Shown here: piece by piece, positions 10,449-36,632 of the stretch
Numbering within the stretch: position 1 is the stretch's first letter
Layout of the letters: each line of letters begins with the position of its first letter
Notes under the pieces: generated by a model
Told to the model about the DNA's origin: nothing
Seen by the model: only the letters and a program-made list of their open reading frames with translations
Databases searched by the model: none
From: Candidatus Schekmanbacteria bacterium
GTDB lineage: Bacteria; CSSED10-310; JACPHN01
Reading direction: 5' to 3'
DNA length: 64,000 nucleotides
NCBI GenBank assembly: GCA_016188575.1
Contig: JACPHN010000041.1
Location: 47,343 to 111,342, forward strand
Made by a program: the position numbers and the translations under genes

Positions 10449-12845
10449 ATGCCGACCTGCACAGGCCATCGAGCGCGTCCGCGCCGCGCCCTCGCCTTTG
10501 TCTTGCTCGCCCTCGCCCTGAGCCGCCCATCCTTCGCCGCCGCCGCGGGCGCGGCCGAAGGCGGGCCGCAAGCGCGCTCCGCCACGCCTGTAACGCTGCT
10601 GCCACCGGTCCTCGAAGGCGCCGCCGGCGTACGCCTCACCTGGTCCGAAGCAAGCGCTCCCGATTTTTCCCATTACGCGGTCTGGCGATCCGAAACACCG
10701 CTTCCCGTTCCGTCGCTGGACCTTCTCGGCGCCGTCCTCGCGGCGCTCGGCGTGACCGCGGCGCTGCTCGCGCTCCGCGTCGGGCACCGCGCTCACCCGG
10801 TGCGGCGGCGCGTCGCCACGGCCGCAATTATTGCCGCCCTGGTCGGGCTCTGGGTCATCACCGCCGAGCAGGCCTCCTCGGTCTCCATTGCCGATCTGCC
10901 GCCGGCGCCCGGCGAAGGCGTCTGGCTCACGACCATCGACGATCGCGCCACGACGACCTACCTCGACTCGGCCGTTCCCGCAGGAGTTTATTTCTACCGC
11001 ATCTACCTCTTCACCACCGGCGACGACATGGTGTCGTCCAACGAGCAACCCTTCTACGATCTCGCACCGACGCCGACGCCGACTCCGACCGAAACGCGAA
11101 CCCCCACGGTGACTCCGACCGCCACCCGCACACGCACGCCAATCCAGTCACCGACCCCGTCGCCGACCATCACGCCCACGTCGATCCCCACCATCAACGC
11201 CAACCTGTACCTTGCCGAGCTACGGCTGACACAAGCGACCGACATCGGTCTGTCTCCCAAGGCCAACCTCGGCGCCGTTACCGTCCCGCGCATCGCCGGC
11301 CGGACCGCCGTGGTCCGCGCGTTCGTCGGTGTCAGCGGCTACAGTTACCTCGTTGATTCCGTCTCTGCTCGGCTGCGCGCCTACAGCGGCGGCGACGAGC
11401 TTTCCGGATCGCCGCTTGTGGCATCGATCGACAAGCTGCCCGAATCGGCCAGTGAAGCGGCGTGGAGCGACTCGATCAACTTCACGATTCCTTCGGGGTG
11501 GCTGGAAGAAGGCACGAGCTTCGTTCTGGAGATCGACCCGGACAATGCCTACGCCGAGACCGACGAGACCGACAACCGAGCTCCTGGCTCGGGCACCACG
11601 CCCTTCGAGCTCGTGTCCACTCCCGATCTGGATCTCATGATCGTGCCGGTCACGCATGCCGGCGTACCACCTGACAGCGCCGCCTTCGACGATGTGCAGG
11701 ACTGGTTGCAGTGGACCTATCCGGTCCCGGACGTCAGCAGGCAGATCCATAGCTCGGTGACGTACTCGGGGCCGCCCGTGAGCAGCGATGGCACGAACTG
11801 GGATGCGGTTCTCGACTTCGTGACCGACATCCGCGGGATGGAGACATCCGCGCCGAATCGGTATTACTACGGTGTTTTTTATCCGGGATACGACTACGGC
11901 GTCGTCGGTCTGGGGTGGATGCCGTACTATCCATCCAGTCCGTTGCCGGTGGCCGTGGGCACGGATCGCTCGTTTGCCGCGGGGGAGACGGGAGCACATG
12001 AAATCGGCCACAATCACGGCCGGAGGCATGTGGCGGCAAGCGGCAGTGGTTGCGGGACGCCGTCCGGTACCGATGCAAGCTACCCGTACGCGAACGGCAT
12101 CATCGGCGTGGTGGGTTGGAGAGCCGGCGCTACGGAGCTTTACGGCAAGGCGGCCTACAGAGACTATATGAGCTATTGCAACACGACGTGGATATCTGAT
12201 TATAACTACAAGGCCTTCTACGACTGGGACGCCTATTATAACTCCGCCCGCGGGAGCGCAGCGCCGAACCCGACCTCCGAGCGCGTCTACTATCTGTCGG
12301 GTGTTGTCCGTGCTGGGCGCGCGACGACGACGATGGCGGCCGAGCTCAGGGACCACGCGCCAACACCCGACGAGGGCGCGCTCGTGCTTGAGCTGCTCGA
12401 CGCCAGCGGCGGCGTCGTTGCCCTCCACCACGCCGCTTCGGCACCTGCCGACCACATCACCGGTGTCAGCGCGTTTCAGGTCAAGGTGGCGCTGGGCCGC
12501 GGCGTCGCCGTGTCTGGTTACCGGCTCAGCAGCCAATCGGGCGCCGTCCTCGCGGAGGAGATGCGGACCGGGAAAGCGCCGGAAGTCACGCAGCTCGCGG
12601 CGCGGCGCAGCGTCGGGGAAGACATCGAGATATCCTGGAGCGATTCCGTGGGCAGGGGCGGGCTCGCCGTGGTCATGACCGATACGGGCCCGGATGGGAG
12701 TTTCGAGGTCAGGGCAATCGGCGCCAACACCGGCTCGGCGCGCCTTCGCGGAGGGGTGGGCGAGCTTGCCGCTCGGCATGTTAGCCGCCTGCGCCTGCTG
12801 GTGTCGGACGGAGCTCGCAGCACCATCATGGAACGTCCGCTGTAG
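10449..12845 (+). CDS. Membrane-hairpin-anchored metzincin-type zinc protease with Pro-Thr linker
   Basis: The 798-residue product has a signal peptide (residues 1-30). Residues ~59-205 look like a fibronectin-III-like fold: it opens with VRLTWSEASAPDFSHYAVWR, is interrupted by two transmembrane helices (about 88-110 and 123-139) joined by a basic loop, and resumes with YLDSAVPAGVYFYRIYLF. A Pro-Thr linker spans 207-248. A CARDB-like beta-sandwich follows (~252-390), ending near the DPDNAYAETDETDN segment. The protease domain has HEIGHNHGRRH at 517-527 (HExxHxxGxxH, three zinc His plus the catalytic Glu) and a Met-turn-like YMSYC at 573-577. The rest is beta-rich. The basic loop should face the cytoplasm, placing the protease outside the inner membrane. 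It lies 14 nt before the sigma-factor gene, so probably shares its transcript. Confidence 0.85.
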   Translation: MPTCTGHRARPRRALAFVLLALALSRPSFAAAAGAAEGGPQARSATPVTLLPPVLEGAAGVRLTWSEASAPDFSHYAVWRSETPLPVPSLDLLGAVLAALGVTAALLALRVGHRAHPVRRRVATAAIIAALVGLWVITAEQASSVSIADLPPAPGEGVWLTTIDDRATTTYLDSAVPAGVYFYRIYLFTTGDDMVSSNEQPFYDLAPTPTPTPTETRTPTVTPTATRTRTPIQSPTPSPTITPTSIPTINANLYLAELRLTQATDIGLSPKANLGAVTVPRIAGRTAVVRAFVGVSGYSYLVDSVSARLRAYSGGDELSGSPLVASIDKLPESASEAAWSDSINFTIPSGWLEEGTSFVLEIDPDNAYAETDETDNRAPGSGTTPFELVSTPDLDLMIVPVTHAGVPPDSAAFDDVQDWLQWTYPVPDVSRQIHSSVTYSGPPVSSDGTNWDAVLDFVTDIRGMETSAPNRYYYGVFYPGYDYGVVGLGWMPYYPSSPLPVAVGTDRSFAAGETGAHEIGHNHGRRHVAASGSGCGTPSGTDASYPYANGIIGVVGWRAGATELYGKAAYRDYMSYCNTTWISDYNYKAFYDWDAYYNSARGSAAPNPTSERVYYLSGVVRAGRATTTMAAELRDHAPTPDEGALVLELLDASGGVVALHHAASAPADHITGVSAFQVKVALGRGVAVSGYRLSSQSGAVLAEEMRTGKAPEVTQLAARRSVGEDIEISWSDSVGRGGLAVVMTDTGPDGSFEVRAIGANTGSARLRGGVGELAARHVSRLRLLVSDGARSTIMERPL

Positions 12846-13387: not shown

Positions 13388-14208
13388 GTAACCTGGACTA
13401 TTCAAAGCTGTCGGGCAAGAACCCGGATTGTCCCTCGGAGCTGCTGCTGGATCGGTTCCACGGCGGTGAGCTTCCCAGCGCAGAAAGCGCCGCAGTTGAA
13501 CGGCACAGCGCGCAGTGCCCGGCCTGTACGGCCAGGCTGGCGCTGCGGCAGCGCGGCGCTGCGGCTTTCCCCGCGCTGCGGCTGGACGAGGTCGCCGATA
13601 AGTGCGTGCGCCTGGACGCGCAGCGCCGCGTCTGTAGAACCTACCGCAGCTCGGTGTGGCAGCGCTTTGCGGAGCGGCTCTCGGCGACCAGGCGCGTGCA
13701 CCTGAGCTGGATCGCGGCCGCGGCGACCGCCGCCGCGGCCATCTTCGTGGCGCTCCTGCCGCAGCTTCGTCACGATGGCGGCATCGACGGGACCGGAATC
13801 CACATGAAGGGCGGCCCCCGGCTTCACGTCGTGCGCGAGCGCAGCGGTGCCGTCGCCGAGCTGGCGGACGGCGAGCTCGTGCGTGCTGGTGATCGGCTCC
13901 AGTTCCGAGTCGATCTCCCGGCGGACGCAGAAGTCATGGTGGTTGGCGTCGAATCGTCCGGCGCGATTTACCCGTGTTACCCGCTCGGCGCGTCCGGCTC
14001 CACAGCGGCGCGCGCCGGTGCCGGCATCGCGCTGGCAGGCGCCGTCGAGCTGGACGACAGCGCCGGCGACGAATACCTTCATCTCGTCGTTTGCCCGCGC
14101 CACTTTGCCCTGCACAACCTTTCGGCGCCTGCCCGAGGAGCCATGGCTGTCGCCGGTGGAGACGGGTGTCGGAGTGACTCCATCCACATCGTGAAGGAGG
14201 TACCGTGA
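13384..14208 (+). CDS. Anti-sigma factor: zinc-finger (zf-HC2) membrane protein with DUF4384-like periplasmic domain
   Basis: The protein has 274 residues. The cytoplasmic N-terminus contains the HxxxCxxC zinc-binding anti-sigma signature (ERHSAQCPACTARL, ~residues 39-52), which clamps ECF sigma factors. A single transmembrane helix (about residues 109-125) is Ala-rich. The outside part has the pattern LHVVRERSGAVAELADGELVRAGDRLQFRVDLPADAEVMVVGVESSG, resembling DUF4384-type modules that often accompany caspase-like proteins. It overlaps both neighbours by 4 nt (ATGA upstream, GTGA downstream). Release of the sigma factor would need cleavage or a conformational change; no site-2 protease gene is adjacent. 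Confidence 0.85.
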   Translation: MSNLDYSKLSGKNPDCPSELLLDRFHGGELPSAESAAVERHSAQCPACTARLALRQRGAAAFPALRLDEVADKCVRLDAQRRVCRTYRSSVWQRFAERLSATRRVHLSWIAAAATAAAAIFVALLPQLRHDGGIDGTGIHMKGGPRLHVVRERSGAVAELADGELVRAGDRLQFRVDLPADAEVMVVGVESSGAIYPCYPLGASGSTAARAGAGIALAGAVELDDSAGDEYLHLVVCPRHFALHNLSAPARGAMAVAGGDGCRSDSIHIVKEVP

Positions 14209-15812
14209 GGGCGGTGCGCCTGGTTAGCCCGGCGGCGGTCGCGGTCACCGTAGTCCTGCTGCTGGTCGCCACGGCGGACGCCGCCGCCGGGACGCGCGTG
14301 ATTGCGATCATCGCCGGCAACAACGCCGGCACCGCGGACGACGCCGCGCTCGAGTTCGCGGAGCATGATGCCGAGGCACTCGCGGCGGTGCTGCGCAAGC
14401 TCTCCGGCGTCGCTGCACACGATGCCGTGCTGCTGCTCGGTGACCAGGCCGAAGATCTCAGAAATGCCTTGCTGCAGACCAACGTGCGCCTGCGCTCGCC
14501 GCTGCGCGATCCAGGCCAGGACGTCACCATCCTCATCACCTACTACTCTGGACATGCCGGGCCTGATGGGCTACACATGTCGGGGACGGTGCTTCCTTTC
14601 GAGGAGCTCAAGGCACTGGTGGCCGGCTCGGCGGCCTCCGTACGCGTGCTCATCGTCGACGCGTGCCGCAGTGGAGGTATCACCCGTGTAAAGGGCGCGC
14701 GCGCGGCGGCGCCATTCGACATCGCGATGGAAGACCGCATCACGGCGGAGGGACTCGCCATCATCACCTCGAGCACCGCCGGGGAAAACAGTTATGAATC
14801 GCAGAGCCTGCGCGGCTCTTTCTTCACGCACCACCTCGTAAGTGGGCTGCGCGGTGCCGCCGACACCGACCGCGACCGGCGGGTGACGCTTGCTGAGCTG
14901 TATGACTATGCGTACCGCCAGACGCTGCAATCTTCCGGGAGCACGTCATCACTGCAGCATCCGACCTTCCTGTATGAGATCAAGGGGCGAGGCGAGCTGG
15001 CGATCGCACGACTCGATCGCGATGTGGAACGGATGGCGACGCTGCAGATCGCCTCGCCGGGACGATATCTGCTGCGCGATCGCGCGGAAGACGGTCCGAT
15101 CGCCGCTGAAGTCGAGATTTCGGAGAAGGGTGCTGACATTGTCCTGCCGGCAGGGGAATACTTTGTCCAGCACAGGGGCAAGGCTGCGTTTCGGGAGTAC
15201 GGGGTCGCTCTGAACAGCCGCGCCGCAGTCGCGCTCGAAAAGTTGCCGTTCCGCGAAGTCACGTACGCCCGGCTGCTCCGCAAGGGTGGCGGCGAAAGAC
15301 GCGCCGTCCACGGTTTCTATGCTTTGGCGGCCGGACGAGGCGAAACGCTGGACCGCGAAGGCCCGACTGCGCACGCCGTGCTCGGATATTCTCTGGATCT
15401 GCCCTGGCTTACCTGGGGTGGGCGGTTTCGCTATGCGGACCGCAAATCGACGCTCGCGGGCGCCAGCCTCGAGCAGCGGCACACAGAGTTGGCCTTCGGG
15501 CTCACGGCTCAGCGCTACGTCGACCTGAATCGCATCAGCCTCGCGCTCGGGCTCAGCGCCGAGGCGGTGCGGCACGAGCAGCGCTTTTCCGGCCCCGGAC
15601 GGGCGCCGGCGCGCGCCGCGTGGGGATCGGCGTTTGGCGGGCTTCTGGGGGTGGAGCTGCAACTGGCGCCGCGCCTTGTAGCGCGTGTCGAGCTCGGCCC
15701 GATGACGACGACGTTCACCCGCGCCATCATCGACAACGGCGCCCCAGCGGGCAGCGAAACTGCCTCGGTCTTCACGTGGTGGCTGGCGACCGGTTTCGGG
15801 TGGCGTTTTTGA
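14205..15812 (+). CDS. Caspase-family (peptidase C14) protease, exported, with C-terminal beta domain
   Basis: The 535-residue product starts with GTG in a GTGA overlap and has a signal peptide (residues 1-28). The caspase p20 fold runs from about 30 to 255. The catalytic His is H117 in YYSGHAGPDG and the catalytic Cys is C154 in LIVDACRSGG, both in the conserved setting of metacaspase and orthocaspase proteins; FFTHHLVSGLRGAADTDRDRRVTLAELYDYA is the usual end of the fold. The remaining ~280 residues are beta-rich, with alternating patterns near the end (LGYSLDLPWLTWGGRFRYA, VELGPMTTTFTRA, WLATGFGWRF). The final Phe suggests an outer-membrane-barrel-like or beta-sandwich domain. Bacterial caspase homologues act in regulated proteolysis or cell death; export here would place it in the periplasm. 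Confidence 0.9.
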   Translation: MRAVRLVSPAAVAVTVVLLLVATADAAAGTRVIAIIAGNNAGTADDAALEFAEHDAEALAAVLRKLSGVAAHDAVLLLGDQAEDLRNALLQTNVRLRSPLRDPGQDVTILITYYSGHAGPDGLHMSGTVLPFEELKALVAGSAASVRVLIVDACRSGGITRVKGARAAAPFDIAMEDRITAEGLAIITSSTAGENSYESQSLRGSFFTHHLVSGLRGAADTDRDRRVTLAELYDYAYRQTLQSSGSTSSLQHPTFLYEIKGRGELAIARLDRDVERMATLQIASPGRYLLRDRAEDGPIAAEVEISEKGADIVLPAGEYFVQHRGKAAFREYGVALNSRAAVALEKLPFREVTYARLLRKGGGERRAVHGFYALAAGRGETLDREGPTAHAVLGYSLDLPWLTWGGRFRYADRKSTLAGASLEQRHTELAFGLTAQRYVDLNRISLALGLSAEAVRHEQRFSGPGRAPARAAWGSAFGGLLGVELQLAPRLVARVELGPMTTTFTRAIIDNGAPAGSETASVFTWWLATGFGWRF

Positions 15813-22760: not shown

Positions 22761-25700
22761 ATGTCGCGTCGCCTCAATTCTCTCTCTCTCTCTCTCTCTC
22801 TCTCTACGCCTCTGGCCGCTGGTCCTGGCGGCCGCCGCGGTGCCGCTCGCGGTGACCCCCCTCCCGGCGGCGCCCGCGCGCGCCGCGGGCGATTCCTTCG
22901 AATCCGGGACCTTCGCCGCCCTGCCGTGGGAGAGGAACCCCGCGGACGCCTGGCAGGTGGTTGCGGGTGACGCCGCCGATGGCGACTTCGCGGCCCGCTC
23001 GGCGCCGCTCGCGGACGGGGACGCCGCGGTGCTCGCGGTCACCCTGGCGCTGTCCACGCCCGGCGAGGTCGCCTTCTGGGTGAAGACCTCGACCGAGGCG
23101 GGCGCCGACGCGCTCGCCTTTGCGGTGGGGGGCGCCTCGGGGACGTTCTACGAGAAGGACCGTTGGTCGGGCGAGCAGCCGTGGACGCGCGTCGCCTGTG
23201 CGCTGGCGAGCGGCACCTGGACCTTTCGCTGGACCTATCGCAAGGACGGCGCCGGCGCGGCCGGCCAGGACGCCGTCTGGATCGACGCGGTGTCGTTCCC
23301 GGACTTCACCGTGCCGCCGTCGCCCACGCCGACACCGAGCCCCTCGCCGACCGCCACCCCATCCCCGAGCGTGACGGCGACCGCCGCCCTGACACCCACC
23401 CCGAGCGGCACGCGCACGGCCACGCCGACCGCGACCCCGACGCCCACCCCCGAGCCACCCGACGAGGACTTCGAAGCGGGCGGCCTCGCGGCCTCGGCCT
23501 ACCCGTTTCGCGTCGCCGCCGGCGAGGCGGCCTGGGTCACCAGCCGCGACGCCGCCTATCTCGGTAGCTTCGCGCTCCGCCCGCTGCCCCTCGCCACGGG
23601 CCAGCGGACCGCGGTCGAGCTCACGCTGGACATCACGGAGAACGGCGTGATCCGCTTTTGGACGAAAACCGAGCTCGCGGACGAGGACGTCTTCACGTTC
23701 AGCATCGACGGCCAGTGGCGCGGCGACATCGCGGGCGCGAGCGACTGGGAGGAGCAACACCTCACGGTGGCGCGCGGGCTGCGGACGTTCCGCTGGGAGC
23801 TCGCCAAGAGCAGCGCGGGGTTTACTGGAAAGGATACCGTGTGGATCGACGCGATCCGCTTTCCGCCGCACGAGATCGCGGCAGTGCCGACGCCGACGGG
23901 GCTGGCGAGCGGCGGCACGCCGCTGTTGTGGGTGATGGCGATCACGCCGAGCACGGCCGCGACGGTTGCCGTGCACCTGGCGTGGACGCGCAGCGACGCG
24001 CCCGATTTCGCGTATTACGCGCTCTACCGTGCGACCGAGGCGTTTTCGGTGCCGGCGCTGGGGCTCGGGGCGGGCGCGGGCGGGGTCGTGCTGCTGGGGG
24101 TCGCGCTCGCGTGGCACCGGCGGCGGCGGGTACCGGGGCGCGGGCGTGGGGGAGGGTGGCGCACGGCCGCCGGCCTTGCCCTGATCGCCGGCAGCGGCGC
24201 GGCGGCGCTCGGCCTGTGGTGGCACCGGGTGGCGGCGATTCCCCTGCCGGAAGGCGAGCCGATCTTTGTGAGCGCGGACCGTGCGGTGACCTCCTACGTC
24301 GACCACGGCCTGTCGATCTACGAGCGCCGCTACCACTACGTGCTCTTCGTCGTGCGCGACGGCGGTGCGAGTAGCTCGTCGGCCGATGCCTGGGTGAATC
24401 CCGGTACGGGAACGAGCGGCGGCATCCGCCTGCTCTACCCGCGCGACGGGATCGTGGTCGGCGACCCCAGGTTGCCGGTGGTCGGCGAGGTGGGGTTCCG
24501 GGTCGACACGGTAGGGTTGCTCATCGAAGCGCCGCAGACGCGGACGTTGCTGTTCCCGGAACGGCGCGCGAGCCCGGACGCGGAAGGCGTGTTCGCCGCG
24601 CTGGTAACGCTGGCTCCCGGGGCCAATGACGTGGTCGCGGTCGCCGATGCCGAGGGCGGCGCGCTCGCCGCGCGGGTACGCGTGACCTACGACGCGGCGG
24701 CGCCGGTGGTGGCGATCACGGATCCGCCGATGTGGAGCGTGGCGCAGGGGGCTACGGTCATCGTCCGCGGGACGACGACCGATCCGGCGGGGCGGGTTGC
24801 CGTGAACGGCATCGCGGCGGTGGTGGAGATCGACGGCACCTTCGCGGCCGAGGTGCCGATCCGGACGGATCGGGCCGGGGCGGTCAACGCCATCCGGGCC
24901 GTCGGCGTCGGGGCCGCCGGGGTACCGGGTCCGGAAGCGGCCGCGGGGGTGCTCACCGGCGCGGCGGCGGTTTCCTCCGGCGCGAGGACCGGGGCGGGGC
25001 GCGCGCCGCTGGACGCCTACGCGGATGCGGTGCGCTTCTGCGGCGCCCTCGACCCCGGCCGCAACAAGAACACCGACTGCACCGCGGCGCTCGGCAACAA
25101 TTTCTCCACGGTGTCGCTGGGCGGACCCGGCGGCTACGCGATCTTCGACATGGGCTTCCTCGGCGAGATCGTCGACCTGCCGGGACCGGACCTGTACGTG
25201 CAGGAAGCTGGCGCGAACACCGCCAAGCGCGAGCCGTTCACGATCTTCGCCATCGGCACCAGCGGCGACGCGGCGCTCGCGGAGACGACGGGCTCCGGGA
25301 CGCTGGATTTCCGCGGCAACCTGTTCCAGGCGGCGCTGGTTGCGGTGGTCGATCGCTCACCGGAGATTTGCGACCAGGACGAGAGCTGTGAACCCGACGA
25401 TACCGGCAACCTGCCGCCGGACTGCTGCACCAGCGGTCTGGTACAGTCGGAAACCCCGGGGTCGGATATCCAGTGGCTGCGAGCGCTGAGCTATGGGCTC
25501 GCGGTCGAGCTCGACGTCCCGAAGGTGCTGCCGGTCGGGGTAGCGGTGCCGCTGCGGTTCGCGGCGACGGTCGAGGGGACGGGCGCGGGGGACGAGGCGG
25601 CGCCGGCGGGCGGGGAAGCGGCCGGGCGCACCCGGGAGGTCGCGCTGCCGGGTACCTACACCTGGGAGGCCGCCGGGCCGGAGCTCGAGCTGGCCGCGGG

Positions 25701-26151
25701 CGAGACCGCGGACCCGGCCAACGAGATCACCGCGCTGCAGGCGGGGGAGGTGACGCTGACGGTGGCCTATATACCGCCCGGCGGCGAGGAGATGACGCTG
25801 GAGGCGGAGCCGGTGGCGATTGGGGTCGCGAGCGTCGGCTGGGAGGGGTACGATCCCGGCGACGGCCATACTGGTTACGAGGCCGCGGACGCGAGCGGCG
25901 CCTGCGGGGCCGCGGCCCGGATCTTCGCCGAGCGGCGGCAACCGCCCGGCCGGGCCTGGGACGACCTGCACGACAAGGTGACGATTCGCACCCAGCTTAC
26001 CTCGGCGCCGCCGGCAGGCGAAACGCTGACCGTGTATTTCCGGGTGCTCGATCCTATAGCGAGGACAGCGGGTTCGACGCCAATGGCGCGGCGCCGGACG
26101 ACAACCTCGCCGCGGGCGGGGACGACGTGGCCGCGGGGGCGACGATCCTGA
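22761..26151 (+). CDS. Large secreted multidomain protein, first part (frame changed at both ends)
   Basis: The frame used from 22806 encodes a signal-peptide core ending APARA, then two homologous ~130-residue jelly-roll-like modules (first ESGTFAALPWERNPADAW, second EAGGLAASAYPFRVAAGEAA, both closing with DxVWIDAxxFP) joined by a Pro-Thr linker. A fibronectin-III-like unit (VAVHLAWTRSDAPDFAYYAL) is split by two transmembrane helices with a basic loop (about 24055-24220) and resumes at TSYVDHGLSIYERRYHYVLF. Ig-like modules follow (GIRLLYPRDGIVVGDPRLPV; APVVAITDPPMWSVAQGATV), then a Cys-containing segment and more beta modules. The frame ends at 26151, but its last ~33 codons look out of frame: a one-base loss near 26054 moves the real frame to the next entry. 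Repaired, the protein would have ~1520 residues. Confidence 0.7.
22779..22804. repeat. (TC)13 dinucleotide tract inside the signal-peptide coding region
   Basis: Thirteen uninterrupted TC units begin 18 nt after ATG 22761. With 13 units the ATG reads out of frame with the long downstream gene and stops near 22970. With 14 (or 11) units it would read MSRRLN, then Ser-Leu repeats, then LRLWPLVLAAAAVPLAV, a normal signal peptide continuing into the gene. This is the arrangement of slipped-strand phase-variable genes; sequencing or assembly slippage could look the same. Confidence 0.85.
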
Positions 26152-27332
26152 ACCCGGAGTTGTTGCCGGGCGACGGCTCGTTTACGCTGCTCGGCGACGG
26201 CGCTACCGATGAGATCGAGATGATCCTGGCGATCTCGGCGCGGCAGCCGGGAAACAATTTCGCGGTGGTGGCGCACACCAGCCAGGAGTACCTCGAGAGC
26301 GTCGGCTTCGCGGCCGACGGGGTGACGCTGGTGGTCGCGGAGACCGGGGCACCGGTGGGCGAGGCCTTCCGCACCCCACTGCTGACCGTGTGGCGAACGC
26401 TGTACGTGGAGCGGGACATCATGGCGGATCCGGATCTCACCCAGGAGCCCGGGCCGAGCCGGATCCCGGCGGGCGCGATCACGGCCAAGGCCGACTTGAC
26501 GATGACCATCGGCGTCGAGATCGATGAACCCGGTGGCACCGATCAGTTTTCGGGCGGCACGATCGCGCTCTACCAGGGTGAAACGCTGCTGAATACCGAC
26601 ACGGTGGTGTTCAACACGACCGGACCCGGCTCGCGGATCGTGGTGCGGTATCCGGTGCCGGCCTTGGCCGACGCCTTCCGCGATCTCGTCGACGACGACG
26701 TGGCGCACGCGGTCACCGCCGCGGACATCATCCCCGACCTGAGCTTGATGGCGTCGCGCTTCCTGCCCGCCTGCGTGCGCGTCGACACCGCCAAGAATGA
26801 CCTCTCCTCCAACAGCTCCGAGTCGGTCGACGACGCCGCGGTGGCGTTCAAGCTCAATGTCGGGACGCTGGGCACCAACGAAAATCAGACGACGGAAAAA
26901 GACGATCTCGTCAAGGCGAACAAGCAGGCTCCTTCTTCACCGGATTTCTGGGTCGCCTACGTACTGGGCGCCTTTCAGGGGCGCGTGGACAAGGATGCGG
27001 ATCCTGACCGTGAGGATTGGATTCTCGGCTTCGGGGGACGCGGGTCGAGCTCCGGCCCATTCGCGCTGCTGTACCGTGAGAGCGTGCGCGACGTTGTCGT
27101 GGCGCCCGGCAGCGGTGTCACGACCTCGGAGGCCGATTTGTGGAGACTGGTTGCCGTGCACGAAGTGGCTCACGAATTCGGTCTGCTGGACAAGGACAAA
27201 GGAGACGACGGTCCGCTGATGAACAACGTCGCGGTGTTGACCGCCGATACCCCGGCGGAGGTCGAGGCGCTGCAATTCAATGGCGTTGGTCTGCGGAAAA
27301 TCGTGGCAGCGGAGCTCTACGGGAGGAATTGA
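26054..27332 (+). CDS. Large secreted multidomain protein, second part: HExxH metallopeptidase domain
   Basis: This frame continues the preceding gene after the -1 shift (VYFRVLDP then YSEDSGFDANGAAPDDNLAA). It encodes NNFAVVAHTSQEYLESVGFA and LTVWRTLYVERDIM, a module seen in large secreted zinc proteins. A beta region and the protease motif VAVHEVAHEFGLLDKD (~27154-27201) follow: HExxH with Glu as base and a Gly-x-x-Asp third-ligand pattern instead of the usual His. It ends with the LQFNGVGLRKIVAAELYGRN tail. It has no convincing start of its own, so it is probably the C-terminal part of the gene from 22761. A paralogue lies inverted at 62933-64000. The next gene begins two bases after its stop. 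Confidence 0.7.

Positions 27333-35417: not shown

Positions 35418-36632
<1,215 letters not shown>

Follow-up and report, generated by a model that had tools for sequence, protein, structure and literature searches.

Proteins of Candidatus Schekmanbacteria bacterium carry a fibronectin type III (FN3) domain that probably houses an internal exosortase-type sorting signal, which would hold the precursor at the inner membrane and then be cut at a V-P motif. According to the structural model, the FN3 domain is interrupted in its C-C' loop by a transmembrane hairpin, the first helix of which is the sorting signal. Three such proteins are encoded in the window, that is, in the whole stretch of 64,000 nucleotides that was analysed, and the coordinates of their parts are collected in Table 1.

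Translation of the reading frames confirmed the order described in the first-pass annotation (strand motif, helix, Arg-rich loop, helix, strand motif) in all three window proteins. In terms of the FN3 fold, strands A-C are followed by V-P and the first helix, the Arg-rich loop, the second helix and strands C'-G. The protein starting at 10449 has, from N- to C-terminus, LTWSEA...FSHYAVWR, then LPVPSLDLLGAVLAALGVTAALLALRVGHRAHPVRRRVATAAIIAALVGLWVITA and then TTYLDSAVPAGVYFYRIYLF, and its domain spans 10581-11069. The second copy is embedded in a large protein and is preceded there by domains and a Pro-Thr linker.

Table 1. Features of the three interrupted FN3 domains and their proteins (window positions)
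Feature	Position	Strand	Basis
Signal peptide, 10449 protein, MPTCTGHRARPRRALAFVLLALALSRPSFAAAAG	10449..10550	+	sequence
FN3 first half, strands A, B, C (V-x-L-x-W ... F-x-x-Y-x-V-x-R), 10449 protein	10581..10691	+	model strands E6-12, E16-21, E29-37
V-P motif of internal sorting-type signal, 10449 protein	10707..10712	+	
First membrane helix, sorting-signal type, 10449 protein	10716..10781	+	model helix 46-67; hydropathy; TM1 profile
Arg-rich loop, net charge +5, predicted cytoplasmic, 10449 protein	10776..10811	+	
Second membrane helix (predicted re-export), 10449 protein	10812..10874	+	model helix 73-98
FN3 second half, strands C', E, F, G, 10449 protein	10911..11069	+	model strands E113-118 to E156-160; FN3 match covers both halves
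Pro-Thr-rich linker, 10449 protein	11070..11195	+	sequence
Metalloprotease-like motif region HEIGHNHGRRH, 10449 protein	11976..12071	+	weak M12B reprolysin-like matches below Pfam cut-offs
(TC)13 tract between ATG 22761 and signal-peptide-like segment, second protein	22779..22804	+	
Second copy, protein 22651/22761	23941..24402	+	FN3 halves and hairpin; profile E 3e-56
V-P motif, second copy	24049..24054	+	
First helix, second copy	24052..24126	+	
Arg-rich loop, second copy		+	
Second helix, second copy	24154..24234	+	
Signal peptide, 35418 protein	35418..35513	+	
Third copy, 35418 protein	35577..36080	+	FN3 halves and hairpin; profile E 7e-61
V-P motif, third copy	35724..35729	+	
First helix, third copy	35733..35786	+	
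Arg-rich loop, third copy	35787..35825	+	
Second helix, third copy	35826..35879	+	

The earlier proposal that the two flanks form a single FN3 sandwich was borne out by an AlphaFold model of the 10449 domain, for which just the three window sequences were used. In the model, two helices are flanked by strands on either side; block pLDDT is about 65-79 for the strands, and the mean of the model is 66.5. When the top chains found by Foldseek were aligned with it, single FN3 domains (e.g. of PelI, neogenin and Robo3) superimposed with Z of 10-11 and rmsd of 2.1-2.5 over 86-95 residues. This structural alignment runs from residue 1/2 to 160/163, across both halves of the domain. Since it extends over both flanks, the halves are predicted to pack as one sandwich with the hairpin in the C-C' loop. 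A model of the most divergent copy (P0002) had the same order of elements and was poor (pLDDT 57, Z up to 6.8 to FN3); being by itself too poor to settle the packing of the flanks, it was excluded as proof. The intact window copies gave no match to Pfam fn3 (PF00041, gathering score 25 bits). After the hairpin was excised from the sequence, 3 of 10 copies passed this score (36.6, 29.6 and 28.4 bits, over nearly the full profile) and three more reached 12-22 bits, with none for window copies P0002 and P0003. Across 17 copies from this genome, the FN3 strand-B Trp and strand-F Tyr never vary.

The inter-helix loop has a net charge of +3 to +7 in all 19 hairpins that were measured. A positive loop of this kind predicts that the loop is cytoplasmic and that both ends of the protein lie outside, and the charges thus support, as the natural topology, the one put forward earlier from the Arg-rich loop.

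Judged from sequence, the first helix is the exosortase-type sorting signal of this genome. It is tripartite, with V-P, helix and Arg cluster arranged as in a C-terminal exosortase sorting signal. Of 19 copies, 14 have a [VI]-P motif, which was absent from the first description of the domain, in the stretch before the first helix, where shuffled sequences would give 4.5 (P about 1e-6; this value and the P values below treat the copies as independent and, the copies being related, are optimistic). A clean V-P is missing in a few copies, e.g. those of contigs 45 and 33. A profile of the first helix only (TM1), built from 16 internal first helices, was run against this genome. Besides the FN3 hairpins there were 13 matches among the inspected best, 11 of which lie at 0-56 residues from the protein C-terminus, mostly within 20 residues of the end (e.g. 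PPVPVLWGTAGVAAFVLAGIMARRRRR), and most of these C-terminal matches share V-P, helix and Arg cluster. Such proximity to the C-terminus is expected for 19-27% of matches (P 8e-7 to 3e-5), a rate taken from all membrane helices in an 884-kb sample of the genome. The remaining two matches are further internal hairpins. Since a profile of internal first helices finds C-terminal tails, the internal helix is the usual end-of-protein signal of this genome.

C-terminal sorting tags are taken to occupy the ends of proteins. The present signal resembles IPTL-CTERM (TIGR04174) and other C-terminal tripartite signals in its Pro motif, membrane helix and Arg cluster, and this genome has C-terminal examples with the same V-P as the FN3 hairpins. 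It differs from them in its placement, which is internal in all FN3 copies of this genome, with a second helix and more protein to follow. When curated sorting-signal models were applied to the window hairpins, scores were weak or absent and none reached its cut-off.

A single exosortase was found in the genome, a protein of 227 amino acids on contig 106 (G000:C106:10760-11443). It passes the exosortase H model TIGR04177 with 86.5 bits, just above the cut-off of 86, and has the Cys, Arg and His of the family (SGCTG, NVVRLV and YSHEYLW), which we take to be the catalytic residues. Exosortase-H-like proteins occur in 7 of the 7 other genomes of the phylum, and C-terminal IPTL/VPTL tails scoring above the curated cut-off occur in this genome, G001 and G003.

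The first-pass annotation knew of no named domain with such a build. That view has to be corrected, for NCBIfam contains a sibling family, midcut-by-XrtH (NF033207), to which the hairpins gave repeated weak matches; we take the meaning of 'midcut' from the name of the family and its model. The score is at most about 13 bits for the window hairpins and about 16 for any FN3 copy, with a cut-off of 45, and no genome of the set, including those of the phylum, has a match above the cut-off. In both forms, a sorting-type signal in mid-protein precedes a second membrane helix, and the genomes encode exosortase H, as expected of the midcut family. On inspection, the matches below cut-off in the phylum proved to be the same hairpin design in other hosts. 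In G006, G007 and G002, a carboxypeptidase-regulatory-like sandwich is interrupted by IPTL-like or V-P hairpins. These weak matches therefore also break a beta-sandwich at a loop, with a carboxypeptidase-regulatory-like host where the window proteins have FN3. Further weak matches lie between cohesin and dockerin, or before a beta-helix, and in G003 hairpins lie between domains and have a second helix that is a classic signal peptide. The best reading is that the FN3 form is an FN3-hosted variant of the exosortase "midcut" element, while by score it is no member of the family. In the literature searched, we found no publication on midcut-by-XrtH or on lipo-invert, nor any that describes an FN3 domain carrying a transmembrane hairpin.

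Two hairpins of this design in other hosts lie in this genome. One (L192, region of G000:C102:163660) is a V-P hairpin in a carboxypeptidase-regulatory-like domain, and there is one stop codon just after the hairpin. The other (L158, G000:C138:12764-12991) has a hairpin with IPALSVM and RYRRRVR between cohesin-like and dockerin domains. Matches of single hairpins to membrane families, including T7SS EccD (17.8 bits against a cut-off of 95), were rejected as effects of composition.

The phenomenon is larger than first noted. A profile of five copies, in line with the check first suggested, found more full-length copies, with E down to 1e-66, which puts the build well outside what chance would give. 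In the 9.2-Mb genome it gave 30 matches at E up to 1, the weak ones being mostly plain FN3 or chance. By inspection, the complete build is present at 20 or more places in this genome (the three of the window together with L010, L011, L014-L024, L029, L030, L032 and L183), and two more are partial (L007 and L025). The FN3 domain follows directly after the signal peptide in about half of the copies; in the others, propeller, jelly-roll-like or Pro-Thr regions are N-terminal to it. Two copies were found in G002, among the seven other genomes of the phylum examined. When ten candidates per genome were scored in 386 genomes of many families, full-length matches were restricted to this genome (G000), G002 and G070, so that the distribution seen for the FN3 form is a minimum. 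No relatives were found in GTDB contigs or viral contigs by a scan with two close copies.

The copy of G070, which belongs to another phylum, is a look-alike at a protein C-terminus, and it was the only one when all 24 genomes of that phylum and both of the G247 phylum were searched. In the G070 genome there was no match to exosortase H, which indicates that the build is not dependent on this enzyme in every case. The locus (L073, G070:C4:217356-217775) has a C-terminal FN3, a V-P helix, an Arg loop and a second helix ending in the lipobox-like AFASC-GGG. Lipo-invert (NF058595) is similar in that it has a membrane hairpin near the C-terminus, and the look-alike scores 26-27.5 bits with it, below the cut-off of 37. 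The window copies, unlike lipo-invert, are without a lipobox Cys and give no match to it.

Internal signals of this class have precedents. The archaeosortase ArtA cleaves an internal signal of HVO_0405 in Haloferax volcanii (PMC7157517), and an internal MYXO-CTERM signal is on record in MXAN_5598 (PMC11980579). Both carry an internal tripartite signal, and cleavage by an exosortase-family enzyme has been demonstrated for HVO_0405. They differ from the present proteins because their signal lies between two domains and stems from single gene fusions, and here it lies inside one domain. In an engineered split monobody, an FN3 cut in the CD loop (which corresponds to C-C') reassembles, and this was reported as the most efficient split (PMC11666773). 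The cut site is thus in the very loop that holds the natural hairpin, and the halves come together again, although the split monobody is engineered and has no membrane helices. Cleavage of HVO_0405 by ArtA and reassembly of the split monobody together lend plausibility to a cut within the FN3 domain.

In the favoured reading, the signal peptide would export the protein and FN3 strands A-C would emerge outside the inner membrane. V-P and the first helix would stop transfer with the Arg cluster in the cytoplasm, and the second helix would restart export, with strands C'-G and the rest of the protein ending outside. The FN3 domain would then close over the outer face of the inner membrane. Exosortase H would probably recognise V-P, helix and Arg cluster and cut next to V-P inside the C-C' loop, and the cut FN3 halves would stay together without a covalent link. 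Should the exosortase carry out a transfer like that of sortases, the C-terminus newly made on the first half would become attached to an envelope acceptor; strands A-C would make up the entire N-terminal product in about half of the copies. The C-terminal part would remain membrane-bound via the hairpin or, given an additional signal peptidase cut behind the second helix, would be released. Starting from the fold, its position, the copy number, the topology signals, the motif, the identity of the first helix, the exosortase H gene and the second host fold, we infer that exosortase H recognises and cuts the signal, and likewise what becomes of the halves and that they are located at the cell surface.

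A stronger form of this model, which we regard as possible with the balance leaning against it, is that the hairpin is excised, by exosortase H at V-P and by signal peptidase I after the second helix. The outcome would be a nicked FN3 domain that leaves the inner membrane held by its own strands. In 13 of 19 copies (68%), the second helix ends with an A-x-A-like site. The corresponding share is 35% among 51 comparable helices from polytopic proteins (p = 0.006) and 59% among N-terminal signal peptides. Two sister hairpins between domains end as classic signal peptides (GTGFAQ and ATLAQS). However, the site matrix is crude and the genome Ala-rich, and several copies are without a good site.

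Alternatively, the hairpin may never be cut and may serve as a permanent two-helix anchor that fixes an intact FN3 domain and its cargo on the outer face of the inner membrane. Topology and fold fully fit such an anchor, and the curated sorting-signal models do miss the hairpins at their cut-offs. What it leaves unexplained is the match of the first helix with the C-terminal sorting signals of the genome, the conservation of V-P before that helix, and the recurrence of the hairpin in other domains within a phylum where every genome examined has exosortase-H-like proteins. The simple anchor originally proposed is therefore not supported as stated, because the first helix is, by its features, an exosortase-type signal and exosortase H is encoded, and we consider it unlikely. 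A cut-and-clasp surface display would be the most elaborate version of the favoured processing: exosortase H would cut FN3, the N-terminal half would go to an envelope acceptor, the C-terminal half with its cargo would be held by strand complementation, and signal peptidase would remove the hairpin. Such a display in full seems unlikely; were it true, one domain would be membrane tether, processing site and non-covalent clasp. Fusion of a protein ending in a sorting signal with one starting with a signal peptide, at a junction without present function, would account for a C-terminal tag followed by a signal-peptide-like helix, is how HVO_0405 and MXAN_5598 are read and could fit some members of the phylum with a hairpin between domains, but it is very improbable here and is rejected as the whole explanation of the FN3 copies, since a single FN3 fold spans both flanks, the junction lies at a fixed loop inside one domain in the FN3 and carboxypeptidase-regulatory-like copies, and both halves are kept in about 20 diverged copies, where a simple fusion would not flank the junction with the halves of one domain.

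Here a sorting tag appears to be housed in a loop within a folded domain, and this in two sandwich folds that are unrelated. With about 20 such proteins in one genome, internal processing may be one of the principal ways in which proteins of this lineage reach the surface. The copies are ready substrates for testing exosortase H on internal signals, and for learning if a domain, once cut, can persist as a clasp. Annotation pipelines would call such proteins two-pass membrane proteins and would miss both the FN3 domain and the signal.

Some features of the window proteins outside the interrupted domain deserve mention. Signal peptides had been placed before the domain in all three proteins; a signal-peptide-like segment is indeed present in each, but the (TC)13 tract shifts the ATG at 22761 out of the frame of its protein. 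Another number of TC repeats would bring this ATG into frame with the signal-peptide-like segment. The start of the second protein therefore seems to be subject to phase variation, barring an error of assembly in the length of the tract or a start at TTG 22651 instead. At 25900-26151, the tail of the same protein is Thr/Arg-rich (RRRTTTSPRAGTTWPRGRRS), unlike its remainder, and an open reading frame at 25473-27332 overlaps its end, where a frameshift is possible. The 35418 protein (35577-36632) and the copy on contig 45 (L003/L010) have in common a domain of some 130 residues at the C-terminus (DLHQV...WEWLRPG...VCGD), which in the window copy gave no Pfam match. Downstream of the first copy, at 14205-15812, a protein with a caspase domain (Peptidase_C14) is encoded.
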